Below, piece after piece: positions 989 through 59,178 of a stretch of DNA of 64,000 nt. Both the position numbers and the translations under genes were made by a program. The stretch is from NCBI GenBank assembly GCA_029964075.1, contig CM057129.1, positions 16,049,430-16,113,429 of the forward strand, written 5' to 3'. The stretch's first letter is position 1, and each line of letters begins with the position of its first letter. Origin of the DNA: Patiria pectinifera. Taxonomy: Eukaryota; Echinodermata; Asteroidea; Valvatida; Asterinidae. The notes below the pieces were generated by a model that worked only from the letters and a program-made list of their open reading frames with translations, was not told the origin of the DNA and did no database searches.

Positions 989-1102
989 ATGGAGCAAATA
1001 AAGACAAAATTCGCGAAGCTGAAGGGAGAAGTTGAAGATGCCCAGGACGAAGCCATGGCACAGAGAAATCTCGCGATGGAGTATAAAGCGCGAATGGAAG
1101 CC
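989..1102 (+). CDS. Tpm: Tropomyosin alternative first exon, copy 1 (residues 1-38)
   Basis: This exon has an ATG followed by 38 codons and ends at phase 0 with GCC|gtaaga. The peptide starts MEQIKTKFAKLKGEVED and ends LAMEYKARMEA, matching the length and style of the canonical tropomyosin exon 1a (MDAIKKK..., 38 residues). Tropomyosin is a dimeric coiled coil that polymerises along actin filaments; the N-terminus makes the head-to-tail overlap with the C-terminus of the next dimer. It can splice in frame to exon 3 at 8260. Copy 2 at 2652 shares 26 of 38 residues, including the last 11. The two start codons have separate upstream regions, so they are probably alternative promoters. Confidence 0.88.
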
Positions 1103-2651: not shown

Positions 2652-2765
2652 ATGGAGAAAATTAAGGCCAAGTTGTCAATCCTGCGCAATGAAGTTGACG
2701 ACGCTAGAGAAGAGGCAATGGAACAGAGAAAACTCGCCATGGAGTATAAAGCACGGATGGAAGCT
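2652..2765 (+). CDS. Tpm: Tropomyosin alternative first exon, copy 2 (residues 1-38)
   Basis: This exon has an ATG and 38 codons, ends at phase 0 with GCT|gtaaga, and encodes a peptide starting MEKIKAKLSILRNEVDD and ending LAMEYKARMEA. It is a paralogue of the exon at 989-1102 with the same length and splice phase, so either can join exon 3. Differences fall mainly in residues 3-27, which include the head-to-tail overlap region, so the two starts could change filament assembly or actin affinity. Codon 1 is chosen because it is the tropomyosin N-terminal methionine; no in-frame coding homology extends upstream. Confidence 0.88.
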
Positions 2766-8259: not shown

Positions 8260-8393
8260 GCTGAAGCAGAGAAGGACGACTTAAACCGAAAGGCACAGCT
8301 TCAGGATGACGACCTCACAAGAGTCACAGAACAGAAAGATGTGCTTTCCGCAAAACTAACGCAAGTAGAAGAACAAGCTGAACTACACATAAG
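8260..8393 (+). CDS. Tpm: Tropomyosin exon 3 equivalent (residues 39-83)
   Basis: A strong acceptor (TTTTTTGCAG) is followed by 134 nt in frame, ending CACATAAG|gtaacg at phase 2. The peptide begins AEAEKDDLNRKAQLQDDDL, which aligns without gaps to vertebrate exon 3 (AEADVASLNRRIQLVEEEL), and the length of 134 nt is exactly that of vertebrate exon 3. The last codon is shared with the next exon (AG|G, Arg). It joins either first exon directly at phase 0, giving RMEA-AEAEKDD with the heptad pattern kept. No exon-2 equivalent was found before it. Confidence 0.92.
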
Positions 8394-18303: not shown

Positions 18304-18349
18304 GGCAACCAAGGCACTGGAAACCAGAAGCATTGCCGATGATGACAAG
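18304..18349 (+). CDS. Tpm: Tropomyosin exon 4a (residues 83-98)
   Basis: After TTTCTACTAG, 46 nt complete the split Arg codon and encode ATKALETRSIADDDK, ending AAG|gtttgt at phase 0. This aligns to the first 15 residues of vertebrate exon 4 (GMKVIESRAQKDEEK). In vertebrates exon 4 is one 118-nt exon; here it is divided into 46 nt plus a 72-nt second part (46 + 72 = 118), so an intron splits it at a codon boundary. The exon is short and supported mainly by exact alignment, phase and splice sites. Confidence 0.88.
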
Positions 18350-20026: not shown

Positions 20027-20526
20027 CATGTGTGTGATATGTTCTTCTAAAAATGTTTTCGACGTTCAAGCTAGCCTACTGAAATGCAAGATTCCAAATG
20101 TTAGCTTTGTGTCTTCATCAAAAATTCTTGATCTTTTGTTTTATTTGGGATGTGTGGTGATTTCCTTTTGATGCATATTTTCTGACGTACCGTACATGTG
20201 CTAATTTTTGTGCTTTATGTTGACAGTAATGTGGAAAGTTTGTGGAATGATTTTAGTTTGCTATTACTCTTATTTATTTTATCCTTTTTGTGTTTGCTTT
20301 CTCAATCCCAACTTCTTTCTCCCCCCCCCCCTTTGAATTCTCTACCTCCTCTGCCCTGCATACCCCCACCCCACCCCACCCCTCGCCTTGTTGGATGTTC
20401 ACTGTCTTCAACTTTTTCTTCGCTGTCAACTGGGGACTCTGTTGCCTACACCTGCTGCCTGGTTGACCTCCCGCCGCTCTGCGAAACGGACACGCCCCTC
20501 CTCTGCCTCCCCTGCCCTCCTTCTAG

Positions 20527-20598
20527 ATCAATTCACTAGAGAGCACAGTGCGATCGTACAAAGAGGCGGCAGAAGAATCCGATCGTAAATACGACGAG
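20527..20598 (+). CDS. Tpm: Tropomyosin exon 4b, version 1 (residues 99-122)
   Basis: A good pyrimidine tract and CTTCTAG precede 72 nt at phase 0, ending GACGAG|gtattg. The peptide starts INSLESTVRSYKEAAEE and ends SDRKYDE, which matches the second part of vertebrate exon 4 (ending ADRKYEE), including the conserved DRKY-acidic signature. A second 72-nt exon that can fill the same slot follows 138 bases later. This version is the conserved one. Confidence 0.9.
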
Positions 20599-20736
20599 GT
20601 ATTGATGAATTCATCTTGTCATCTTTCAAATTAACCTTGTGTGTTTGTTTTGTTTTCTCCCGTCATGGGGGGTTGTTTATTTTTTGCTCCCTTGCCATCG
20701 CAATCATGTACGGACTTCACCTTGACGTGTAAAAAG

Positions 20737-20808
20737 ATTACACGTATGGAGAAGGAGCTGATTAAGGAGAAGTCGTCTGCCGATCACAATAAATTTTTGT
20801 ACGATGAG
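20737..20808 (+). CDS. Tpm: Tropomyosin exon 4b, version 2, probably mutually exclusive (residues 99-122)
   Basis: The 72 nt follow GTGTAAAAAG and end TACGATGAG|gtaacg, phase 0 at both ends. The peptide starts ITRMEKELIKEKSSADHN and ends KFLYDE. It has the same length and coiled-coil character as version 1 and can replace it, but lacks the DRKY signature and is more basic. The acceptor has a weak pyrimidine tract, so it may be regulated or rarely used. Including both versions would add 24 residues, not a multiple of seven, and would break the heptad frame, which argues for either/or use. Confidence 0.75.
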
Positions 20809-20961
20809 GTAACGTAATTGTGCAATTGAACAGAATCCTGCTTGATATTTTGGTGAGGGTATCATTCAAATGCAAATTTGTGGTTTCCCCGTCCAGACTA
20901 CCCAGAAATCTTGGTTGGAGTGTTTTCAGTGTGGATGCAATCCGGGTGCAAATTTCATGAA

Positions 20962-21106
20962 GCTGCTAAGCAGAGAATGACTGCTTAGCAGATATTAGCT
21001 GGGAACCAGTCACAAGCAGTGTACATTGCAAGACAGTTTGGCTGGTTACCTGTTTTTGCCGGGCAAATATTTTCTGAGCTTAGCAGATTTCTGTGCTTAG
21101 CTGCTG
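20962..21106. repeat. Dispersed inverted-end repeat, CTGCTTAGCAG family
   Basis: It begins GCTGCTAAGCAGAGAATGAC and ends TGTGCTTAGCTGCTGC, with TGGCTGGTTACCTG inside. An inverse relative lies at 51188-51328 and a shorter one at 34701-34817. It is probably a non-autonomous DNA transposon. Confidence 0.6.
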
Positions 21107-21269
21107 CACACAAAAAATTGTGACAATGTAGCAGTTGGGAAAGGGAAAAAGCTGCAAGTGTGGTGAAATTGACAGAAACTTCTATATGTGTGAACCGGGG
21201 GGACGTAGCATTTTGTATGCAACTTGGGCCACATCCGAATTGGCATGGGTAGCGAGCGCCGCCTCTCAC

Positions 21270-21382
21270 CAAGTTATTACTTGGCTATGGCTTGCAGTTA
21301 CTTACCCATGTGCCTATGGGAACGGTTGAAGCCACTTCCCATAGACACCTGTATAAAGGCCGTCTGTAGCCACTAGCCATGG
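21270..21382. repeat. Dispersed repeat, GCTGTGGCTTGCAG family
   Basis: Contains TTGGCTATGGCTTGCAGTTA, CATGTGCCTATGGGA and TCCCATAGACACCTGT, and ends near GTAGCCACTAGCCA. The copy at 33056-33156 keeps the same blocks in order and orientation. The ends (TTGGCTATGGC and GCCACTAGCCA) are weakly inverted. Confidence 0.6.
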
Positions 21383-21943
21383 TTAAAGTGTTCCAATGAT
21401 GGCAGATTACTAAAAGATATGGGCTCCGTGCACAAGTACCCTCTTGCCTGCAAGAAAGGGAGAGTTGGAGGAGACCATCGGCTGAGATGCTCGAATGCTC
21501 GCAGACGACGCCTGACACTCGCGCGAAGATGGCGTTGTGCACATTCACAATGAAATAAGTCATGCGAACCAGTACGCGCACGCGGTGTGTCCCGTGCGCG
21601 GGGCTCTCAAAAGTGGTAAAAATGCACCCTCTCTTGTTGGCACACGGAGCCATTACTGTAAGCCAAAGTGCCTGGTGGTTAGGGTTTTATCAGTTGCCAA
21701 ATATTACTTTATAAATTGTGTATGCCTTGACATTGTGTTTGAATGTTGGAGGAGTTTAATTTCTTCTCGTTGTGTTGTTGTGACTTGTCCAGCTTGTCTT
21801 GTATGTGAATATTACTTTATTTATACATGTACTTGATGATGCTTGACCAACAACTGTTGGTGGTGACACACTTTTGTTTATAATAAGTCCTGGGAATTTT
21901 CTACAATTTTCAGTTTAATATTGAATATTATGTTTTTTCTAAC
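21383..21943. other. Intron stretch, nothing recognised
   Basis: Slightly more GC-rich than the neighbouring intron, with a GCGCACGCGG-like block near 21575-21602. No splice-flanked coding segment is seen. Confidence 0.45.
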
Positions 21944-22097
21944 GGGAGTCTTTTGAGACATTGGTGGCCGCAAACACACCGGTCCTGTTTCCACTGTTTG
22001 CGCCATATTGAGCATGCACGCTTTTAGCTTAAACGTGACGTAAACAATTCAAAAGAACCAGTGTGTTTGCTGCCACCAATGTCTCAAAAAGTCTCCC
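21944..22097. mobile_element. 154-bp foldback MITE
   Basis: GGGAGTCTTTTGAGACATTG at the left and CAATGTCTCAAAAAGTCTCCC-type sequence at the right are inverted arms of about 40 bp, also sharing GCAAACACACCGGT against ACCAGTGTGTTTGC. No coding content. Confidence 0.7.
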
Positions 22098-22282
22098 ATT
22101 GACTAGCACTAAAATGTTCCATTTTCTTTGCTTGTGTTGAGTTACATGTACATGTGGCGAGGATTCTGCAGTTGATGTTTTCCCTGTGGTCCTTTTATGT
22201 GTTTGAATCGTTGGAGAATTTTTTTTCCCGTTTTGTATCAGTGCTGACAATTTTCTCTGTAACAATTTGTTTTCCTGCAAAG

Positions 22283-22353
22283 GTCCTTAGAAAATTCACT
22301 GTTGCAGAGCAGGATTTGGAGCGTTCAGATGAGCGTTGCAAGGACTTAGAGAG
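22283..22353 (+). CDS. Tpm: Tropomyosin exon 5 (residues 123-146)
   Basis: After TTTTCCTGCAAAG, 71 nt run from phase 0 to a split codon (AG|gtaagc). The peptide starts VLRKFTVAEQDLERSDERC and ends KDLE, aligning to vertebrate exon 5 (VARKLVIIESDLERAEERA...). The exon length, 71 nt, is exactly the vertebrate length. The conserved DLER.DER core confirms the identity. Confidence 0.92.
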
Positions 22354-22460
22354 GTAAGCTAAAGAAAGACGGCTCGGTTTTGTGGAAAGTCGTCGCACAG
22401 TGGTTTTTAAAGTTAAAAATCCAGCCAAAAAGGAATGTTCTTGGCCTTCGAATAATTTGT

Positions 22461-22758
22461 GGGGCGCTGTGGTCCAGTGGTTACGGTGTTTGACTCATGG
22501 GCCGTGGTACATGGGTTCGAACCCTGACGGGGAACACGGTGCTTGTGTTCTTGGGCAAGACACTTTACTACGATTGCCTCTCTTCACCCAGGAGTATAAA
22601 TGGGTACCTGTGAAGGTAGAGACCAAATTGCGCTGATCTTGAGCTGCTGCAAGAAAAAATTGTCTCATTCCTGATGAACAGGGATAATAATTGTAAAGCG
22701 CTTTGACACCTTGGGTATAAAGCGCTACAAAAGCACCATATTATTATTATTATTATTA
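22461..22758 (+). mobile_element. tRNA-derived SINE, near full length
   Basis: The head resembles a tRNA: an A-box-like GTGGTCCAGTGG and a B-box GGTTCGAACCC at 22514-22524. A body follows with GGGCAAGACACTTTAC and GGAGTATAAATGGGTACCTG. The tail has GTAAAGCGCTTTGA and ATAAAGCGCTAC and ends in (ATT)n. This layout is that of an RNA polymerase III SINE whose 3' end resembles an L2/CR1-type LINE tail. A truncated relative lies at 54549-54795. It is inserted in the intron after exon 5, in sense orientation. Confidence 0.85.
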
Positions 22759-23065
22759 AATTTTATTTTTGAAATTGACGATACTTGCATATGGCACATG
22801 AAAATCTTGGTGTTTTTTTTCACATAGGCATGACACGTAACAGGATGACGAAAATTGCTGTCTAATTGCGAGAGATAAATGAGGGCCTTAAATGAGTTGT
22901 GCCGTTTATATGTGCAAAAACAAAACAAAAAGTCGCACGAGTGTTGTTCACATTTTCATTTTCACTTCAACAATCTGTTTACCCAATGAAGATTGTTCAC
23001 TGTTGTAGTCTTGATTCCTTCCGCAAACAGTCATCTGTGAATACTGTCCCTTGTCTCTCCCACAG

Positions 23066-23204
23066 CAAGCTCAACGAACTTACAGAACAGGTCAGCAACT
23101 TGCAGGCAGCCAACAAGTCGGCCGAGGCTCGATATGAGAAGGCTTCGGAGGCTGAGGAAGCATTGCTGGTCAGAGTACAGGAACTGACCGCTGAGAAGGA
23201 GGCT
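23066..23204 (+). CDS. Tpm: Tropomyosin fused exon 6+7 (residues 146-192)
   Basis: After CTCTCCCACAG, 139 nt finish the split Ser codon and run to GAGGCT|gtaagt at phase 0. The peptide starts KLNELTEQVSNLQAANKSAE and ends VRVQELTAEKEA. Vertebrate exons 6 (76 nt) and 7 (63 nt) together make 139 nt, and the alignment has no gaps, so this exon equals both joined. This fixes the internal part of the protein with no alternative exon 6, unlike vertebrates, where exon 6 is a common site of choice. Confidence 0.9.
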
Positions 23205-24403: not shown

Positions 24404-24473
24404 TTGGCGAACCAAGAGGAGTTCACCAACCGGTCATTCAAAACTCTGCAAGTCCAGCTGGAGAGCGCCGAAG
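24404..24473 (+). CDS. Tpm: Tropomyosin exon 8 (residues 193-216)
   Basis: After TCTCTGACTTCAG, 70 nt run from phase 0 to GCCGAAG|gtgagt, leaving one base of the next codon. The peptide starts LANQEEFTNRSFKTLQVQ and ends LESAE, aligning to vertebrate exon 8 ([23 protein letters not shown]), which is also 70 nt. The trailing G pairs with AC or AT at the start of each last exon to encode Asp216. Confidence 0.92.
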
Positions 24474-25025: not shown

Positions 25026-28000
25026 AGAGTAACCATTATTACCAAGCCATTTAGTGGTTACGAATAAAACTTGGACGTTCCTCAACAAGTCTGTGCTGAG
25101 AAATGCAATGACGGTGTAGGTTTTCAGTGAGAGGTTTTGGATAATAGCTTTTTGTTTTGTCCTACGTGTAGGTCCAGATTTTGACAGATGTTTGCAAATA
25201 GTGCACAAGAGTAAAAAAACAAAAACCACCAGCCATGTCTCATGCAGTACTCTTTACTTAACACAGTATAAAATGTACCGCAATGCAGTTAAAATCCAAT
25301 TTGATTTTTATTTTGCATTTAAGTTTATCTTGTTGTAGAGGATTTAGTCTTTCCTCGCAATATCTACGTCACTGAGTTTGAACCTCTTTGCCATTGGTGT
25401 TACACGATCACTGATTATTAATGTCAAATAGTTTAGGATTGTTTGACATCAAACTGCACATAAAGGTACATTTTACATTGTGTTCTTTTTTACCTTCAAT
25501 GTTTCATTTTTTTGATGAATTAATGTTCCCTTCTCTTCCAAATTCCCTCAAAATTCTGTATTTCTGTTGCAAAAATTGTTTCCCCTCTTTCTACACAGCT
25601 CCTATGCTTAACCCCCCCAATTCAACTGATATCAATCTGTTTGATTGCCTTTATTATCGATGTTCTTCTTTCTCAGGCAAATTTATACAAGTTTCTTAAC
25701 TTCCAGCTGAATTTTCTCGATTAGTTTTTTATTAATCGCCACACAGCAATCGCTTAAACATGATTCATTCTTTGCATAAACTGACTAATCTCACCCAACT
25801 AACGGAGTGAACATGATTAATGCCCAATCTCCTTGCTAGTGTTTGTTATTGTTGTTTGTTTTTTGTAGTTGTTGTTGTTTTTTGGGGGGTTGGGGGTTAT
25901 TGGTAGTTTATGATTTTTCTTTTCAATCAACTGTCAGCATTTCTGTCTTGGTTCTGTTGCTAAATGTCTTTATGTTGTAGATTGAATGATGCCAGTTTCT
26001 CATTTTTGTGGTCACGCTGCTTTAAAAAAAAAAATTTCTCAGAATTATGACATAGCCCCTTTAAGATGGGAGTATTACTAGGAATCATGGGCAGGCATTC
26101 CTGACGTGTGTATGATAATCTGGTGGTCAGAATGCCAGATATTTTCCCCCTGGTATGCCTGCAATGGGCCATATGGGCTGCAGTCACAGCCGGGCCAGCC
26201 TGGGGAGTATGTCCACCAGGCTAGCACTGGAGATATTTCCCCCCCTCCACATTACTGTGGAATAGGAATTGGTGATGTCACAAATATGCATCACCAAATA
26301 TGGTGTGGAGCCTTAAAGATGATTTGAGGACACAGGGGAGTGGGAGGAAAAAAGTGTTAATTGTGAGTCAATTTACGGGAATGGCGCAGAGGTTTAGCTC
26401 TTTAAAGCTTCCCTTGTCTAATAAAATGTGATTAGAATTAATCTAATATGCTCCAGTTTTAATGAGAGTGGAGCAAATCATGCCAATAATAACTAGAGAT
26501 TTCATTTGAAAAAAAGACCATACCAATGAACATGAAGGTACACGAAGAGATTTTATCCCACTTATACGCTGTAGGTACTAGTCTTCTGCATAAGACTTAA
26601 TTTAATAAAGAGTATAATCCGTTCAGGGATTGTAAAAGCACTCATAAATATCCAGCCCAGAAGAGTTTAACCCTTAGGGAATGAAAGGAAAAAAAATCCT
26701 TTAGAAAAAGCTTGTTAAATGGAAAAGGGGATGGTCTGTGTATGTAGCATTTTCTGTTTGTTTTTTTGTTGCTGTCAGTTATGAAATGTCTGAATTTGCT
26801 TCAAAGACTGTCGGAAAAAAAAATCAATTTGTTAAGTAATTCTTCTGTTTGTTTTATGGTTGTGTGTCTGAAATTGTTCCACGTTCTCATTGCTTCATGT
26901 GCAGCATTTGGGCCTCACTCAACTCATCTTCATCTCTCTCTTTTTTTAACATCAATCTTGCAAAATGAAAAAATTGACTTTGCTTTCACATCATCATTCA
27001 TTGAGCTACTTCATGTTGTTGCCTCTTATACTGTAGCCCTGAGCATTCAGATGTTATCTTTTGACCAGGCTCCCATTGCAGTACTAACCACCACTCTCCC
27101 ACCCTCCCCTCTGTTTTTCCTTCCCCAAAAGAAAATCATGGCACAATATCCGAAGACTAGTTTTCCCCAAACAGCTCAAGACAAAGCAAAATCATAGCCG
27201 ACAGAAAGAGAAACTTTCAAATGAAGATGCAATTCTTCCAACAGCACTGTTTAATCACAAGTGGAGCATCTATTAACGAGCACATGTCTTGCTTGTTGAT
27301 TCAATAGAATTTGTTTTAAAAGTAAACCTTTTTTGCATTGTCTTTGAAAACCTGATCTAGATTGAAACTGAACAAATAATTAGCAAAAGATTTTTCTGCA
27401 AAACAATTATGAAATTTTTGGTTATAATAAAAAGCTACAATTTTTTTGCCTTGGTATTTCTGGTTATATAACCAGGTATGAAGCTCTCCAAATCCTGTGG
27501 CATTCTTGATATGTTTTCCCTGCCCATGACTAAAATCCAGGCATTTATTCAGTTCTAAGAACAAACCACAGCGATGTTATTTTTTCAGCTAAAAGCAAAA
27601 CTCCACATGAATCTTGGACTAGTGCCTTACACCTTACTTGCCTATCTATCCCTAACAGTTCTGTACACACGTTCCTATATTAACCCACCTTATTCTTGTT
27701 CTGTATTATTTTGGCATGGATGGTGGTTTGATAGATATAAAAGCAGAAATGCTTGAATCCATTGTGTGATCATAAAAATTAACGAGTTAAAGAAAAAAAA
27801 GTAGTGGCGTAATGGGAAAGAACTCCCATTGTGTTGATTTGCATGGGATTTGCGGTGCAGAATTAGTTCAGTGATTAATTTGTGTTAACGGCCGAGAGCC
27901 ATGCATCTGGTTGCCACACACATAATAAGTAGTTACATGTAGGATAACGTGTTTTTTTATTTACGTAGGAAATGATATTATGTTCATGAATCATTCATAC

Positions 28001-32187: not shown

Positions 32188-32270
32188 ACATGTTGGAAAA
32201 AGAACGCCAGAAGTCGGCAAAACTCCAAGCGGAGCTGGACGAAGTCAACACCGAACTCAACCTGCTATGA
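32188..32270 (+). CDS. Tpm: Tropomyosin alternative last exon 9a (residues 216-242, stop)
   Basis: After ATTTCCGCAG, 83 nt complete Asp216 and end with TGA. The 27-residue peptide starts DMLEKERQKSAKLQAELDE and ends LNLL. All three last exons and vertebrate exon 9 (DELYAQK...) encode 27 residues from the same phase. The C-terminus forms the head-to-tail overlap and binds troponin T in muscle tropomyosins, so the choice of last exon may set muscle or cytoskeletal use. A possible poly(A) signal AATAAA at 33152-33157 is weak evidence. Confidence 0.9.
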
Positions 32271-37648: not shown

Positions 37649-37731
37649 ATGACTTAAACTCAACCAAGGAGAAACTCATGAGGATGCAAATAGAGCATGA
37701 CCAGGCTCTGAGTGACTTGGGAGACTTCTGA
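37649..37731 (+). CDS. Tpm: Tropomyosin alternative last exon 9b (residues 216-242, stop)
   Basis: After CCATCCATACAG, 83 nt complete Asp216 and end with TGA. The peptide starts DDLNSTKEKLMRMQIEHD and ends LGDF. Length and phase equal those of 9a and 9c. The unusually long pyrimidine tract upstream is a strong acceptor and a potential site for pyrimidine-tract-binding regulators. Candidate poly(A) signal AATAAA is at 38269-38274. Confidence 0.9.
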
Positions 37732-38274: not shown

Positions 38275-39242
38275 ATAATCAGGAATATCTGGGGGGAAAA
38301 AGATAAAATATTCCATGATCTCTCAATGTTTCAAGCCATGTTCAGAAACCGCTACGATGGAAAGCTGTTTTCAGACGGTGCCTTCCAATGTTCAGCACCG
38401 CCTGTCAACAGCCTCAGTCCATCAAAGCGGCCGATAATTGCACAAAGTGTAAAATGTCATGAGACTGGTGGTGGTGGATTTTGTTGGTTTTTTTACCGTG
38501 CACTTTTTTGTGAGTATCTGTGGTGATGCTAGTTGACATACCAGTAATTCAGTGATTTGTAAAGTATGTATCTGCCTTTTTTCCCTAGTTATAATGTAAA
38601 CAGAACATAGGTCGTAGGTTTTCAAAAAAAAAAAATATTAAGATATTCAGAAATTTTAAGATTTAATTTTTGTACTTATAATAATAATACATAATACATT
38701 GATTCATTCCAAGTTGCATAGTTTAGGCTGTATATTAGGTTTTTTTGCGTGTTTCTGTTTGTTTAATGGTTATCTTTTGCGTTGAGGTTTTTGGTGCCTA
38801 TGCAACTTAAATTATCACATTCTCTTTATTTTTTTTCTCTCTCTTCATTCCCGACTATGTCTGTGTCTCTGTTGCACCTTTTACCCATTAACACCTCGTG
38901 CTCTATGTGATCTACGATGACCTACACCTGCATGTGATCCACACCTTGATATTTACCATCTCCTTTGAATCGTTCTTGTCTGTGTCATACTCTCCTACAA
39001 TCCAACCGTCTTGTGATGTATTCTTACTATCCCTTGTCTTTGCAACCTTTTTGTGCGTCTGGAATACCTCTACCATGTGACTTGTCCATGTTGTCTCCAC
39101 GGCAACCGTCCATCTCCCTCCCATCTTATCTGTGGCATCCTCCATTGTGGCAACGTCTCATCTCTGCTTTGTCTTCATCCCCATGGCAACGTCTTCCTCA
39201 TTGTCCTCCTTGTGGCATCCTCCTCCCATTCTCAACCAACAG

Positions 39243-39325
39243 ATGAGCTGCTTCAGGAGAAGGAACGTCTGAAGGGGATGACGGACGAAGTTGAGAGGGT
39301 CATGCAAGAACTGGTGGAGTACTAA
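39243..39325 (+). CDS. Tpm: Tropomyosin alternative last exon 9c (residues 216-242, stop)
   Basis: After CTCAACCAACAG, 83 nt complete Asp216 and end with TAA. The peptide starts DELLQEKERLKGMTDEVE and ends ELVEY. It begins DEL like canonical exon 9 (DELYAQK), making it the most conventional of the three ends. Candidate AATAAA signals are at 39529-39534 and 39672-39677. No further exon of this type was found downstream. Confidence 0.92.
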
Positions 39326-43088: not shown

Positions 43089-45155
43089 TTACGGCGAATT
43101 AGCTTTGTTCAGAATAAAGTATGCCACTTCATCGAGTGGAACGGGTACATTGCGAAGCCACTGCCCGCCTTCCACACTATCTCCTTGTGGCATGCGTGTC
43201 CACAGTCCAGCCACTGGAGGGAGGTAGACATCCCTCGAGTAGGTGGCGTTATTGACGATAGGCGCCACTAATAGGTCATCACCAACTAGAAACTCTGTGT
43301 CCATCTTGAGGGAGTCTTCGTCGGTCGGTGCGATCCACCATAAGGGTCTGATCAGCGGCTGACCGGGCTTTACGATGGTCTCCTCCCGGGCGATCTGGAG
43401 CAGCTTAGGCGTGATGACATCCTCGTGGAAGGTGACCCACTTCTTGGAGATGGTCACCACTTCGTCATCGTACTGCCAGGGCGAGATGGAGAACTGCATA
43501 GCCGGCATGAAGGCCGTGATTTCCAGCCATCGTATGAAGAGCTCCCGCGGTGGTACTTCGAGCCCGTGGAATTCTGAGTCCGACTCGTAAGAGTTGCCAC
43601 CAATCATGTCCGGTAGGATGTAAGGATAACCCATCAGACCGAACGTTAGCGCTGTGGTGATAAGTGTCTTTAGTCCGTTATCCCAGCCCCAGCGAGAATC
43701 CTTATCCATCATCCTGACAAAGATTGGTAGGTTCTGGTTTTCGAAGGCAGCCCTGATCTCGATTTGACCTCCAAAACGCGCTGCCATCTTAGCGTACAGG
43801 GTCGTATACTCGCAAGGATTGACAAAGGGAACGTAGGTTTCGAAATCCTCGACTAAATAGTTAGTTTCTCCAGCGTCAAATTTGAAGGAATCAATTCCTG
43901 TATCTTGTTGAAGCTTCTTGAGTCTTGCTACGAACCAATCCACTGCGGTCGGATTGGTCACATCAAGCATACCACCCAGGCCATTCCACCACTTGACCAC
44001 GCCTTCATTCTGCCCCCGTTTAGTCACCCAGTAGCCTTTCTCCTTACCTTCTTGGTACGCGTTGGTGTCAATGTTAGCAAATGGTATCACCCAGAGAGTC
44101 ACGCGAAATCCCTTGTCGTGAAGTTTCCGAACGGTGCCTTTCACGTCCGAGAACTTCGTGTGATCAAAGTCAAGTTCACCGTACTTCATGGAGTATCCAT
44201 CGTCGATTTCTATTTGGCTGTTGGTGAACCCATGGGCTATGATCTCATCTGCATAATCGTTCACTACACTGTCATTGATGAAGATTTTGTATCGTGCCCA
44301 CGTTGACCAGATAGGAGACCTGATCATTCTTTCGTCCGGTAAACCCGTCGGTTTCCCGCCAGCCGGGCCAATTTCGCGCCAAATGGCGTCGTGCACGAGG
44401 CGCACATCGTCATGCGTGCAAACTGTGTAGTCCAATAGATGCAAATTGTTCGTGAAGTTCGGATAGTAGGAATTGTCATATGTGCTTTTGAAGCACAGCA
44501 TCCCATCGCCATTGTCATTCAGACTGACATGCAGAGGGGTGTCATGGCTGACACGAATGGCAACCCCTCGAGACGATAACCAGTACCTGTCCAAAACCGA
44601 TCCGTACCTCTGCAAATTTGTGTACACGTCTCCAGATGCAAACATTGTACTTGATCCACTCATTTTCTCTATTGGCCATACCTGGCGGTACCGCTCACCT
44701 GCACCATACCAGTGAGCCCCATCCAGTGAATAGCAGTCTCGTAGGGGTGTGTCGGCAACAAATGACTCCCATTGCACGTGCGCACACGTAAATGGTCTAG
44801 CTTCATTCGTGTCAACCGGTTCAATCTTGACTTCAGCTATTCCTTTCCAAGTATAGCAGAGAGTGTTCCCTTCGGCGGAGCATTCGAGGCCTTTCACACT
44901 GGCAGGCGAGCTAGCAGCTAGGCTGCCACTCAACACCGTGTTTCCTTTGTGGTTTTGGATCGAGATTTTCCCGGTCGTAGCCTCCACACCAATTAGCTTC
45001 CCAATGGCAGGTGAGGAGAAGGCGGAGCTGGCAGGACTGGAATTCATCGACTTCAGGTTTAAAGTGAACAGAGAGCCGGAAAAGACACGGGCAGCTATCA
45101 AACACACTAACAGCACGGCCACAGCCCGAATAATGAGGCGCCATTTTGTAATCAT
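43089..45155 (-). CDS. MYORG-like GH31 glycosidase, tandem copy A (688 aa)
   Basis: A complete single-exon gene. Residues 1-6 are a short basic cytoplasmic tail, and about 7-30 form a hydrophobic signal anchor, so this is a type II membrane protein with a luminal or extracellular enzyme. The rest is a GH31 domain of the MYORG / SITS-binding-protein group: EIDDGY near 316-321, LWVIPF near 354-359, KWWNG near 388, KFDAGE at 425-430 and WGWDNG at 489-494. By comparison with MYORG, an alpha-galactosidase, Asp427 is the likely nucleophile and Asp492 the likely acid/base. The motif LGYPF-type (MGYPYILPDMIGGN) and MPAMQFSI are also typical. N-glycosylation sequons occur at 234, 294 and 636. Its substrate is not known from sequence. 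It is about 2.3 kb downstream of its near-copy B on the same strand. Confidence 0.93.
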   Translation of the reverse strand: MITKWRLIIRAVAVLLVCLIAARVFSGSLFTLNLKSMNSSPASSAFSSPAIGKLIGVEATTGKISIQNHKGNTVLSGSLAASSPASVKGLECSAEGNTLCYTWKGIAEVKIEPVDTNEARPFTCAHVQWESFVADTPLRDCYSLDGAHWYGAGERYRQVWPIEKMSGSSTMFASGDVYTNLQRYGSVLDRYWLSSRGVAIRVSHDTPLHVSLNDNGDGMLCFKSTYDNSYYPNFTNNLHLLDYTVCTHDDVRLVHDAIWREIGPAGGKPTGLPDERMIRSPIWSTWARYKIFINDSVVNDYADEIIAHGFTNSQIEIDDGYSMKYGELDFDHTKFSDVKGTVRKLHDKGFRVTLWVIPFANIDTNAYQEGKEKGYWVTKRGQNEGVVKWWNGLGGMLDVTNPTAVDWFVARLKKLQQDTGIDSFKFDAGETNYLVEDFETYVPFVNPCEYTTLYAKMAARFGGQIEIRAAFENQNLPIFVRMMDKDSRWGWDNGLKTLITTALTFGLMGYPYILPDMIGGNSYESDSEFHGLEVPPRELFIRWLEITAFMPAMQFSISPWQYDDEVVTISKKWVTFHEDVITPKLLQIAREETIVKPGQPLIRPLWWIAPTDEDSLKMDTEFLVGDDLLVAPIVNNATYSRDVYLPPVAGLWTRMPQGDSVEGGQWLRNVPVPLDEVAYFILNKANSP

Positions 45156-47430: not shown

Positions 47431-49476
47431 TTACTTGGCGTTGGTCCGAGTAAAGTACGCCACTTCATCAAGTGGAACGAGTACATTGCGAAGCCACTGC
47501 CCGCCTTCCACACTATCTCCCTGTGGCATGCGTGTCCACAATCCATCCACTGGAGGGAGGTAGACATCCCTGGCGTAGGTGGCGTTATTGACGATAGGCG
47601 CCACTAATAGGTCATCACCAACTAGGAACTCTGTGTCCATCTTGAGGGAGTCTTCATCTGTCGGTGCGATCCACCATAGGGGTCTGATCAACGGCTGACC
47701 GGGCTTTACGATGGTCTCGGCCCGGGCGATCTGGAGCAGCTTAGGCGTGATGACATCCTCGTGGAAGGTGACCCACTTCTTGGAGATGGTCACCACTTCG
47801 TCATCGTACTGCCAGGGCGAGATGGAGAACTGCATGGCCGGCATGAAGGCCGTGATTTCCAGCCATCGTATGAAGAGCTCCCGCGGTGGTACTTCGAGCC
47901 CGTGGAATTCCGACTCGTAAGAGTTGCCACCAATCATGTCCGGTAGAACGTAAGGATAGCCTAGCAAGCTGAATGTCAGCGCTGTGGTGATAAGTGTCTT
48001 TAGTCCGTTATCCCAGCCCCAGCGGGAATCCTTATCCATCATCCTGACAAAGATTGGAAGATCCTGATTCTCGAAGGCTGCTCGGACCTCGATTTGGCCT
48101 CCAAGGCGCGCTGCCATCTCAGAATGAAGAGCAGTATATTCGCAAGGATTGACTAAGGGAACATAGGTCTCGAAATGCTGGACTAAATAGTTGGTTTCTC
48201 CAGCGTCGAATTTGAAGGAATCAATTCCAGTATCCTGTTGGAGCTTCTCGAGTCTTGATACGAACCAATCCACTGCGGCTGGGTTGGTAACATCAAGCAT
48301 TCCAGCTAAACCATTCCACCACTTGACCACGCCCTCATTCTGCCCCCGTTTAGTCACCCAGTAGCCTTTCTCCTTACCTTCTTGGTACGCGTTGGTGTCA
48401 ATGTTAGCAAATGGTGTCACCCAGAGAGTCACGCGAAAACCCTTGTCGTGAAGTTTCTGAACGGTGTCATTCATATATGGGAACTTCGTCTGATCAAAGT
48501 CAAGTTCTCCGTACTTCATGGAGTATCCATCGTCGATTTCTATTTGGCTGTTGGTGAACCCATTGGCAATGATCTCATCTGCATAATCGTTCACCACGCT
48601 GTCATTGATGAAGATTTTGTATCGTGCCCACGTTGACCAGATAGGAGACCTGATCATTCTTTCGTCCGGTAAACCCGTCGGTTTCCCGCCAGCTGGGCCA
48701 ATTTCGCGCCAAGTGGCGTCGTGCACGAGGCGCACATCGTCATGCGTGCAGATGGTGTAGTCCAAGCGCTGCAAGTTGTTTTCGAGGTTGGGGTAGTAAG
48801 AGTTAGCATAGGTGCTTTGAAAGCACACCTTTCCGTCACCATTGTCATTCAGACTGACATGCAGAGGGGTGTCATGGCTGACACGAATGGCAACCCCTCG
48901 GGACGATAACCAGTATCTGTCCAAAACAGATCCGTAATCCTGCCAGTTTGCGTACATGTCACCAGATACGTACATCGTAGTGGTCTCATTCCATTTTTCA
49001 ATCGGCCACAGCTGATAGAACATCTCGGCACTCCCGTACCAATGAGCCCCATCCAGGGAATAGCAGTCTCGTAGGGGTACGTCGGCAACCAAAGATTCCC
49101 AGACCACGTGCGTACACGAAAACTGCTCGTCTTCCACTTCCTGTGTGGCAACCAAGTTGATGTTGACCTCTGCAGTTTCTTTCCAGAGATAGCAGAGTGC
49201 GTTCCCTTCAGCGAAGCATTCAAGACCTTTCACACTGGCAGGAGAGCTAGCAGCTAGGATGCCACTCATCACGGTATCTCCTTTGAGGTTCTTGATGGAG
49301 ATTTCCCCGGTTGAAGCCTCCACATCTACCACTGTTCGTATGGCAGGCGGGGATTTGGGGGGAGTCGAGTCATCCCGGCCCACGGTGAATACAATAGCAC
49401 ATATAATGCCAGCGCCCACGGCGCACAAAAGCAACACCACTACAACAGCGAGAATGAGCCTCCGTTTACTCAACAT
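47431..49476 (-). CDS. MYORG-like GH31 glycosidase, tandem copy B (681 aa)
   Basis: A complete single-exon gene and paralogue of the one at 43089-45155. Residues 1-6 are basic, 7-31 a signal anchor (VVVVLLLCAVGAGIICAIVF region), followed by a Pro/Ser linker and the GH31 domain. Catalytic motifs are intact: EIDDGY near 313-318, KFDAGE at 422-427 (Asp424, likely nucleophile) and WGWDNG at 486-491 (Asp489, likely acid/base). From about residue 180 to 675 it is nearly identical to copy A in protein and largely in DNA, while the N-terminal 180 residues differ more. It lacks a two-residue Ser-Asp present in copy A after NSYES. The last residues differ (FTRTNAK versus FILNKANSP). Substrate unknown; membrane location and enzyme class are well supported. 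Confidence 0.93.
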   Translation of the reverse strand: MLSKRRLILAVVVVLLLCAVGAGIICAIVFTVGRDDSTPPKSPPAIRTVVDVEASTGEISIKNLKGDTVMSGILAASSPASVKGLECFAEGNALCYLWKETAEVNINLVATQEVEDEQFSCTHVVWESLVADVPLRDCYSLDGAHWYGSAEMFYQLWPIEKWNETTTMYVSGDMYANWQDYGSVLDRYWLSSRGVAIRVSHDTPLHVSLNDNGDGKVCFQSTYANSYYPNLENNLQRLDYTICTHDDVRLVHDATWREIGPAGGKPTGLPDERMIRSPIWSTWARYKIFINDSVVNDYADEIIANGFTNSQIEIDDGYSMKYGELDFDQTKFPYMNDTVQKLHDKGFRVTLWVTPFANIDTNAYQEGKEKGYWVTKRGQNEGVVKWWNGLAGMLDVTNPAAVDWFVSRLEKLQQDTGIDSFKFDAGETNYLVQHFETYVPLVNPCEYTALHSEMAARLGGQIEVRAAFENQDLPIFVRMMDKDSRWGWDNGLKTLITTALTFSLLGYPYVLPDMIGGNSYESEFHGLEVPPRELFIRWLEITAFMPAMQFSISPWQYDDEVVTISKKWVTFHEDVITPKLLQIARAETIVKPGQPLIRPLWWIAPTDEDSLKMDTEFLVGDDLLVAPIVNNATYARDVYLPPVDGLWTRMPQGDSVEGGQWLRNVLVPLDEVAYFTRTNAK

Positions 49477-56976: not shown

Positions 56977-59178
56977 TCATGCCCTAGTAAAATAGGGCAC
57001 CTGATCAAGCAAGGCTTCGCATTCAACCCATGCACCGCCGTTGACAGTTGTCCCATGAAGCTGATCCACCCACTTCCCTTCAGGTAAATACACCTGTCGC
57101 TTTACAAGTCCAAGGTCTAAGACAGGTGCAACTAGCATGTCATTACCAATCAAGAACTCGGAGTCCATGCTTTGGGCGACTGGGTCAGACGAGGCAGTCC
57201 ACCACAGAGGCCGGATGACAGTCGCTGTTGTGTTTCCACTTTCTGTGGCGACCTTTACCACTAAAGGAGCAATGGTTTCCTGGTGGAATTTGATGAACTG
57301 GTTCGCGATGTTGACTGTTTCCTGATCGTACTCCCAGATGGGGACGTTGATTTTCATGGCAGGAAAGAACGCGATGACCCCAAGCCATCGAAGGAGGAAC
57401 TCTTTATCCGGAAGACAATCCACGAAACACGAGGGGTCGTAATGTTGCCCTCTGACCTCGAGATCCGGCATGGTAAATGGATATCCGAGAATGCTCAGAG
57501 TTAATACTGTAGGAATGAGAGATTTCAACCCGTTTTCATAACCCCAGACTGACGTCTTTGGAATGGTTTGCACAATAAATGGAATGTCTTGGGACTGGGA
57601 AGCAGAACGCATGATGACAGAACCGTTGGTCTTATCAGCAAGCTCCACATAACGCTGTGTGAATGTACAAGGGTTCCTGAGATCCTCCACGGTTTGGAAC
57701 TCGACTGGGAGGTAACTGACTTGACCATAGTCGAAGGTAAAGAAGCTGACTCCAGAGGTATTCTGGAGACTCTTCAGTTGACTGAGGAACCAAGACGTGG
57801 CATTGCTGCTGGTGACATCCAGGAGACCTGCGACACCGTCCTTCCATTTGGTGAGTCCCGGAACTTGTGATCTAGGATCTTCTACCAAGTACTGATTCCG
57901 GAGACCTTCCTGGAAGGCCTTGGAGTCGGTGTTCATGAAGAGAGTAATTCCCACGGCCACGTCCATTCCAAAGTCCCGGATCCGTGAAATGGTTGTGGCT
58001 ATGTTTGAGAATCTTTCTGCATCAAACGCTAGATCTCCTTCACTGGTGGTATAATCACATTGGATTTCCAGAGAGTTTGCCCCCAATTTGCTGTCGCGAA
58101 TAGCACTTGCGAATTGCAAAAGGGTCGTCTCATTAAAAGTGCTCTCCCTTGAACATGCAGGCACAGACCACATGGGGCTCTTTGATAAAGCTTGCTGGGG
58201 CACAGCTCGTAGCTTCTTACCGAATTTGTCCATCATCTTTTGATGGACTGATGGCATGTCGACAGCAGCACACAAAGTGTATTGCAGTTTGGGCAACTCC
58301 TCTTTAGGATTTGGAAAAGGCGAGTCATGGTATGTAGCCTCAAAACAAAGTTTTTGATCGTCTTCATTGATGCTGACAAACAGAGGAGACTCGTCATTAA
58401 CCCTTATCCCAACTCCATGTGAGGCAAGCCAGAAGCGTTCCACGACTGGTCCAAAACTGTTTGCTTTATGGCCGGAAACAAACGGTGCACGTGATTGGTT
58501 CATCTTCTCCAGCGGCCACTGTTGATTGGCTGATACACCTCCCCCATACCAGTGGATATTTTCAAAGCTGTAGCAGTCTCGGTGAACAAGATCGTGAGAC
58601 AGAGCCTCCCAGGTTAAGTTGTAGCAGTCCATCCCTGAAAGCTGCTCCACGTGAATCAGCAATCTTGCAATGTCCGGGTACTCCAAACACAGGTTCTGTG
58701 AGTCAAAAGGGTCACACGATGATGGCAACATGTCCGGCAGGTTCATCCCGATAAGTCCCCTCGTGATGTTGGCTCCATTAAGATGGACGTCAAACTCCCG
58801 GGAAACCGCGTAGAACATGGCATTGCCGACCTTGTAATGCAAAGGCTCCTCGACGTAAAGCACCAGGATGCAGGTGGTTGAAGCAACAATGAGACAGAAG
58901 AGAAAGATGATGCTGATCTTGAGTTTGATCTCGCGAGGCTTCTTCAACATTCTTAAGGGCTTGGCAATGTCCACTTTGTTTGGATCAACGGTGGCATTTG
59001 TCCGCTTCTTGACCTCGTGGTGGTCAATGCTAGGCACCTCTAGGGAGATGGATCCGTTCCCCTCGGCGTCAACGACGACTTGAGATGTGGAAGCCATGGG
59101 TGATGGCGCACCCCCTGTCACCAACAAGGAAGTGTGAGCATTAACATTAGGTTCAGAGTTCTCCCGCACTTGTAACAT
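56977..59178 (-). CDS. SITS-binding-protein/MYORG-like GH31 protein C (733 aa), altered active site
   Basis: A complete single-exon gene. It has a longer cytoplasmic N-terminus (about 87 residues) than A and B, then a signal anchor at about 88-109, then a GH31 domain. Family motifs are recognisable: DVAVGITLF near 406-414, LLDVT near 452, TFDYGQ at 481-486, VWGYENG at 544-550 and LGYPFTMPDL. Asp483 keeps the nucleophile position, but KFDAGE has become TFDYGQ, the proposed acid/base Asp is Glu548 (WGYE rather than WGYD), and EIDDGY has become EIQCDY (372-376). It may have changed specificity or lost activity and act in binding or transport, as the SITS-binding name for vertebrate relatives suggests. 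The first Met gives the longest frame; Met28 is an alternative. Confidence 0.9.
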   Translation of the reverse strand: MLQVRENSEPNVNAHTSLLVTGGAPSPMASTSQVVVDAEGNGSISLEVPSIDHHEVKKRTNATVDPNKVDIAKPLRMLKKPREIKLKISIIFLFCLIVASTTCILVLYVEEPLHYKVGNAMFYAVSREFDVHLNGANITRGLIGMNLPDMLPSSCDPFDSQNLCLEYPDIARLLIHVEQLSGMDCYNLTWEALSHDLVHRDCYSFENIHWYGGGVSANQQWPLEKMNQSRAPFVSGHKANSFGPVVERFWLASHGVGIRVNDESPLFVSINEDDQKLCFEATYHDSPFPNPKEELPKLQYTLCAAVDMPSVHQKMMDKFGKKLRAVPQQALSKSPMWSVPACSRESTFNETTLLQFASAIRDSKLGANSLEIQCDYTTSEGDLAFDAERFSNIATTISRIRDFGMDVAVGITLFMNTDSKAFQEGLRNQYLVEDPRSQVPGLTKWKDGVAGLLDVTSSNATSWFLSQLKSLQNTSGVSFFTFDYGQVSYLPVEFQTVEDLRNPCTFTQRYVELADKTNGSVIMRSASQSQDIPFIVQTIPKTSVWGYENGLKSLIPTVLTLSILGYPFTMPDLEVRGQHYDPSCFVDCLPDKEFLLRWLGVIAFFPAMKINVPIWEYDQETVNIANQFIKFHQETIAPLVVKVATESGNTTATVIRPLWWTASSDPVAQSMDSEFLIGNDMLVAPVLDLGLVKRQVYLPEGKWVDQLHGTTVNGGAWVECEALLDQVPYFTRA

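Follow-up and report, generated by a model that had tools for sequence, protein, structure and literature searches.

Tropomyosin isoforms set what actin filaments do, and the question raised by this locus is whether a starfish tropomyosin gene chooses, in the middle of the rod, between two interchangeable second halves of exon 4, here called 4b1 and 4b2. We analysed a window of 64,000 nt from Patiria pectinifera, together with its flanking DNA (94 kb for most scans) and, where stated, the whole genome. Our reading is that 4b1 and 4b2 probably arose by tandem duplication and are used in a mutually exclusive way by this gene, the only tropomyosin gene that we recognised in the genome, and that the exclusion would most likely be steric.

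The gene model on which this reading stands, apart from exon 4, comprises the following exons.

C1:16041237: first exon of the long form, 38 aa, about 8 kb upstream of the window
C1:16043180: exon 2, 126 nt, about 6 kb upstream of the window
989-1102, plus strand: first coding exon A of the short (LMW) form, 38 aa, 114 nt, from ATG to GT donor; rank 3 of 36 first-exon candidates in 94 kb
2652-2765, plus strand: first coding exon B of the short (LMW) form, 38 aa; rank 1 of 36 first-exon candidates
8260-8393, plus strand: exon 3, 134 nt, AG/GT borders; identical to human TPM1 at 16 of 45 residues
22283-22353, plus strand: exon 5, 71 nt
23066-23204, plus strand: fused exon 6+7, 139 nt
24404-24473, plus strand: exon 8, 70 nt; top-scoring 70-nt candidate in scans
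32188-32270, plus strand: alternative last exon 9A, 27 aa and stop; rank 1 of 1322 last-exon candidates
37649-37731, plus strand: alternative last exon 9B, 27 aa and stop; rank 4 of 1322, 186-nt AG-free zone upstream
39243-39325, plus strand: alternative last exon 9C, 27 aa and stop, DELLQEKERLKGMTDEVERVMQELVEY; rank 2 of 1322, 454-nt AG-free zone upstream

All three first exons are the top three of their 36 candidates, and the last-exon candidate at rank 3 of 1322 is a stretch inside exon 3. The 134 nt of exon 3 are the canonical length of that exon in tropomyosins; exons 6 and 7 of vertebrates measure 76 and 63 nt, and the vertebrate exon lengths are kept in the starfish gene save for the split exon 4 and the fused exon 6+7. 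Combining three starts, two versions of 4b and three ends gives 18 single-choice isoforms, each with one stop, of 284 aa (long) or 242 aa (short), the two lengths having separate starts and unbroken heptads. The rebuilt chain is identical to human TPM1 at 100 of 284 positions. Against the Pfam tropomyosin family (PF00261, cut-off 38.6 bits) the long form scores 126.7 bits with 4b1 and 111.2 with 4b2, both above the cut-off, compared with 87.4 with neither and 115.7 with both, and the closest PDB sequence to a short form is that of a tropomyosin 3 (E 1e-20). These similarities support the assignment of the gene as a tropomyosin.

The two short-form first exons, at 989-1102 and 2652-2765, lie in tandem and both end in LAMEYKARMEA, an arrangement that would imply two short-form promoters or a choice at exon 1. 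They were rejected as the sole first exons of the gene, as the upstream DNA holds exon 2 and the long-form exon 1; exon 2 was not found between 2767 and 8258, where it had been sought. An AG-free, pyrimidine-rich stretch at 25466-25596 was rejected as an exon lead-in, with no coiled-coil frame following it, and among the best four candidates per exon type across the gene we judged no other alternative exon of canonical length convincing. Elsewhere in the window, the minus strand carries three uninterrupted open reading frames of glycoside hydrolase family 31, which we assume to be MYORG-like, at 43089-45155 (688 aa), 47431-49476 (681 aa) and 56977-59178 (733 aa); by eye, the first two look like close copies.

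Whole-genome exon-by-exon queries, scoring the best candidates only, reveal no recognisable second tropomyosin gene. A human-type tropomyosin query gives four matches at E ≤ 10, one to the gene's own exon 1 and three elsewhere with E between 1.0 and 3.0, and the gene's own long form gives 11, nine of them in the gene itself and two at E near 9; we take these weak matches elsewhere to be other coiled coils. A whole-genome PF00261 family search returns no match at E ≤ 0.001, probably because the exons are short, and a diverged second copy could have been missed by the exon-by-exon searches. Genome-wide searches for neuropeptide motifs agree with a starfish origin, and with the echinoderms to which the initial annotation pointed; a COX1 search gave no match. 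Two tandem NGFFYG copies with dibasic sites, the signature of the starfish NGFFYamide precursor, lie at C5:11670603-11670649 (KRNGFFYGKRNGFFYGKR), the only two matches to a degenerate DNA pattern for NGFF(F/Y)G-KR, and the starfish S1 SALMFamide pattern has one match in the genome; reversed-pattern controls gave 0 matches in both searches. According to PMC4772807, Asterias rubens has two NGFFYG copies with dibasic sites and the sea urchin peptide is NGFFFamide.

Exon 4 is distributed over three segments.

18304-18349, plus strand: exon 4a, first part of canonical exon 4, 46 nt, AG/GT borders
20527-20598, plus strand: exon 4b1, 72 nt, with DRKY, AG/GT borders, INSLESTVRSYKEAAEESDRKYDE
20737-20808, plus strand: exon 4b2, alternative to 4b1 as second part of exon 4, 72 nt, without DRKY, AG/GT borders, ITRMEKELIKEKSSADHNKFLYDE

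The initial annotation had described a canonical 118-nt tropomyosin exon 4 cut into 46 and 72 nt, with two 72-nt second halves 138 nt apart, each running from phase 0 to phase 0, encoding 24 residues in the same heptad register and differing in that only the first keeps DRKY; every coordinate, length and phase in that description holds on re-examination. DRKY occupies residues 159-162 in the 4b1 form, where 4b2 reads KFLY. Exon 4a completes the codon begun by exon 3 and leaves phase 0, and joined to either second half it restores the canonical 118 nt. Its heptad score is weak: it comes fourth among the open 46-nt candidates of the gene strand, 84 in all, and the opposite strand has one that scores higher. 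We call the exon on its position, phase, borders and the 5 of 15 residues that it shares with human TPM1. Both second halves start at residue 141 of the 284-residue chain, an 'a' position, span residues 141-164 and have the boundary YDE|V at both ends, and the DNA of the pair occurs once in the genome. The two thus agree in anatomy, phase and register, and they resemble one another in sequence, as detailed below.

How closely 4b2 is related to 4b1 was gauged by scanning both strands of the 94 kb, which contain 628 AG...GT pairs spaced by 72 nt, 201 of them open. By BLOSUM similarity to 4b1, 4b2 ranks second of the 201, behind 4b1 itself only, and it is again second to 4b1 in similarity to human exon 4. 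The two are identical at 7 of 24 residues and, at the DNA level, at 31 of 72 bases. Slid along the gene's own chain, 4b2 scores 30 at its true site, which is 4b1, and at best 14 in the 37 other register-matched windows, and shuffles that preserve core and surface positions reach the 4b2-to-4b1 score with P = 0.0033. Support from human TPM1 is weaker: the true site scores 15, at residue 246 one register-matched window does better with 20, and shuffles give P = 0.07. The pair is adjacent and equal in length, phase and register, as tandem duplicates are, and we read 4b2 as a diverged tandem copy of 4b1, not as the product of chance.

Two explanations would deprive 4b2 of a role in the gene. It might be an open frame that happens to lie between an AG and a GT, and its heptad score alone, only seventh among the 201 open candidates, would permit that; what makes this account scarcely credible is that the candidate closest to 4b1 out of 200 others should sit 138 nt away, behind an AG-free intron, and match 4b1 in length, phase and last residues. 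That 4b2 is instead the decaying relic of an old exon duplication, without meaningful splicing into mRNA, we consider unlikely. Such decay could explain why only 7 of 24 residues agree with 4b1, why DRKY is lost and why the acceptor lacks an adjoining pyrimidine tract (pyrimidine fraction 0.52 just upstream), but the frame is intact, the AG is canonical, the heptad register is kept and the GT donor is a reasonable one, in the top 2.4% of 5802 GTs in 94 kb. An AG-free zone moreover fills the whole intron before 4b2 (P = 0.003), and a relic has no reason to keep one. Strong divergence is also compatible with function, in that exon 7c of worm lev-11, 17-19% identical to its sisters, is found in cDNA and matters for worm health, according to PMC10512467. 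We infer that 4b2 is used in mRNA.

The AG-free zones upstream of the acceptors bear on how a choice between 4b1 and 4b2 could be made. They measure 33-50 nt before exons 2, 3, 4a, 5, 6+7 and 8, the six whose acceptors we took to be constitutive, and at the alternative acceptors 268 nt (4b1), 136 nt (4b2), 21 nt (9A), 186 nt (9B) and 454 nt (9C); an AG exclusion zone of at least 100 nt upstream, the AGEZ threshold, is thus found at 4b1, 4b2, 9B and 9C and not at 9A. The zones and the candidate signal discussed below are as follows.

20257-20524, plus strand: AG-free zone before 4b1, 268 nt, pyrimidine-rich; second longest of 4981 plus-strand AG gaps in 94 kb
20599-20736, plus strand: intron between 4b1 and 4b2, 138 nt, without internal AG; its 136-nt AG-free zone ranks 7 of 4981 gaps
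20631-20635, plus strand: candidate distant branch point TTAAC, A at 20634, called on motif only; distance 36 nt to the 4b1 donor, 102 nt to the 4b2 acceptor
38787-39240, plus strand: AG-free zone before 9C, 454 nt; longest plus-strand AG gap in 94 kb

The 454-, 268- and 186-nt zones are the three longest of the 4981 plus-strand AG gaps. Eight plus-strand gaps reach at least 136 nt, four abutting 4b1, 4b2, 9B and 9C and four at no exon, and on the minus strand 4 of 5057 gaps do so, the longest being 204 nt. The exclusion is specific to AG at 4b1 and 4b2: of the nine dinucleotides compared, the runner-up in free-run length is TA at 4b1 (76 nt) and AA at 4b2 (31 nt), the GA-free runs are only 34 and 20 nt, and composition shuffles are free of AG with P = 0.0083 and P = 0.003, respectively. 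Specificity is lower at 9B (TA-free run of 161 nt) and 9C (GA-free run of 160 nt), and long runs free of other dinucleotides do occur, such as the GG-free run of 178 nt at the exon 6+7 acceptor. By the same shuffle P is 0.00005 for 9C and 0.08 for 9B, and 9B alone is therefore not convincing. According to PMC1431707, a distant branch point may be marked by a large AG exclusion zone, alternative splicing is more frequent where such zones occur, and the few exons of this kind that have been studied experimentally are PTB-regulated. The long zones before 4b1, 9B and 9C suggest regulated distant branch points, possibly under PTB-type control.

Of the branch motifs in the 138-nt intron, TTAAC with its A at 20634 is the best usable one, and a pyrimidine-rich run follows it; a motif at 20605 scores higher, yet lies only 7 nt from the 4b1 donor. 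Should the predicted branch point be used, it would lie so close to the 4b1 donor (36 nt for this candidate) that U1 and U2 could not both assemble on the short intron, and 4b1 therefore could not be spliced to 4b2; each mRNA would join 4a to one of the two and then continue to exon 5. The human OGDH exons 4a and 4b are kept exclusive by distant branch points whose separation from the 5' splice site, 25-41 nt, is less than a proposed steric limit of about 50 nt (PMC7969005). The predicted intron geometry would be similar, whereas the gene is unrelated, the OGDH branch points were mapped experimentally while the starfish one is a motif candidate, and the limit of about 50 nt comes from vertebrate work. 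The 4b1 donor, GTATTG, is weak, with 11.9% of 5802 GTs in 94 kb scoring equally well. RNA pairing finds no support as the means of control: the 138-nt intron folds no better than shuffles (z -0.13), and none of the three inverted repeats of at least 14 nt in 20100-22300 touches 4b1 or 4b2. One inverted repeat in the intron after 4b2 (21951-22089) has 39-nt arms that are 90% complementary and is possibly a small mobile element, and the intron after exon 5 contains, at 22460-22760, a tRNA-SINE-like element (GTGGTCCAGTGGTTA... ending in an ATT repeat) recognised by eye only.

Both exons could be real without being exclusive, 4b2 serving as a cassette that can be added after 4b1 to give a 308-residue chain. 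The two together stay in frame, the chain with both scores higher against Pfam than that with 4b2 alone (115.7 versus 111.2 bits), and the weaker branch motifs further down the 138-nt intron include one, best at A 20679, that lies 81 nt from the 4b1 donor; this is beyond the limit of about 50 nt, so a branch point there would not be sterically blocked and the distance would be enough for 4b1-to-4b2 splicing. Set against this, the chain with both scores below that with 4b1 alone (126.7 bits), and 24 added residues would shift the heptad by three and break the seven-fold actin period. As 24 residues amount to three heptads plus three, including both second halves or neither breaks the heptad register, and one of the two alone preserves it. 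We regard the cassette as quite unlikely; the splice-site anatomy, as predicted from sequence, favours the picking of one of 4b1 and 4b2, that is, mutually exclusive use.

To our knowledge, vertebrates make no isoform choice at tropomyosin exon 4. Tropomyosin genes have duplicated exons repeatedly and independently, and Irimia et al. reportedly found in 2010 that no tropomyosin exon has escaped duplication in all lineages. The proposal in the initial annotation that exon 4 would be a new site of isoform choice is not borne out: in human, fly and worm tropomyosin genes the penultimate exon alone takes no part in tandem-exon events, as section 17 of PMC9741552 presents them, so that exon 4 is not a new choice site among animals. 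Human TPM1, fly Tm1/Tm2 and worm lev-11 resemble the starfish gene in having tandem exon copies, long and short starts and several C-terminal exons, with three tandem last exons in TPM1, lev-11 and Tm1 according to the same section (PMC9741552). Unlike in those genes, an additional intron divides exon 4 of the starfish, and the doubling is confined to the 72-nt second part; a literature search of limited depth found no echinoderm with such a half-exon unit or with its distant-branch-point layout.

For vertebrate alpha-tropomyosin, Smith and Nadal-Ginard reportedly described in 1989 a distant branch point at mutually exclusive exons. In alpha-tropomyosin, an extended AG-free zone with a distant branch point is found at exon 3 (PMC1431707); the starfish gene likewise has an AG-free zone, but the site is exon 4 and the branch point is predicted only. 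Exon 7c of the C. elegans isoform LEV-11U (PMC10512467) is comparable to 4b2 in being an alternative exon of the mid-rod that has diverged strongly and belongs to an animal's single tropomyosin gene. It swaps residues 188-234, whereas the starfish 4b exons would swap residues 141-164. PMC10512467 reports that LEV-11U, with an exon 7c 17-19% identical to its sisters, binds actin poorly, and that exon 7c is used at about 1/5000 of the exon 7b level. Poor actin binding has thus been measured for LEV-11U, whereas for the starfish 4b2 form it would be a guess.

What the swap would change in the protein can be placed on the tropomyosin repeat. Pseudo-repeat 5 comprises residues 165-205 (PMC4714992), so that the swapped residues are roughly the final 24 of actin-binding pseudo-repeat 4, whose first part, encoded by 4a, stays constant. 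Arg160 and Lys161 of 4b1 become Phe and Leu in 4b2, and the contacts of the 4b2 form with actin or partner proteins may differ from those of the 4b1 form. Section 6 of PMC7109180 places the actin-facing positions in the N-terminal half of each tropomyosin period; that half of period 4 is mostly constant exon 4a, which counts against an effect of the swap on actin. The consensus positions that this section names for period 4 are 135 and 143 (PMC7109180), of which the former falls in 4a and the latter in 4b. A literature search for an actin contact of tropomyosin residue 160 found no source.

A bolder extension, which strikes us as rather doubtful as a whole, is that one starfish tropomyosin gene, independently of vertebrates, set a steric distant-branch-point switch at exon 4 that would swap the last 24 residues of one pseudo-repeat and give a form without Arg160 and with altered or weak actin affinity, a distant-branch-point code shared by 4b1, 4b2, 9B and 9C then coupling the mid-rod and C-terminal choices. 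If mutually exclusive use of 4b1 and 4b2 is true, a one-gene echinoderm would have its own mid-rod exon choice, made through a branch-point geometry that vertebrates use at other exons, and would clearly exemplify a splicing mechanism that evolved convergently.
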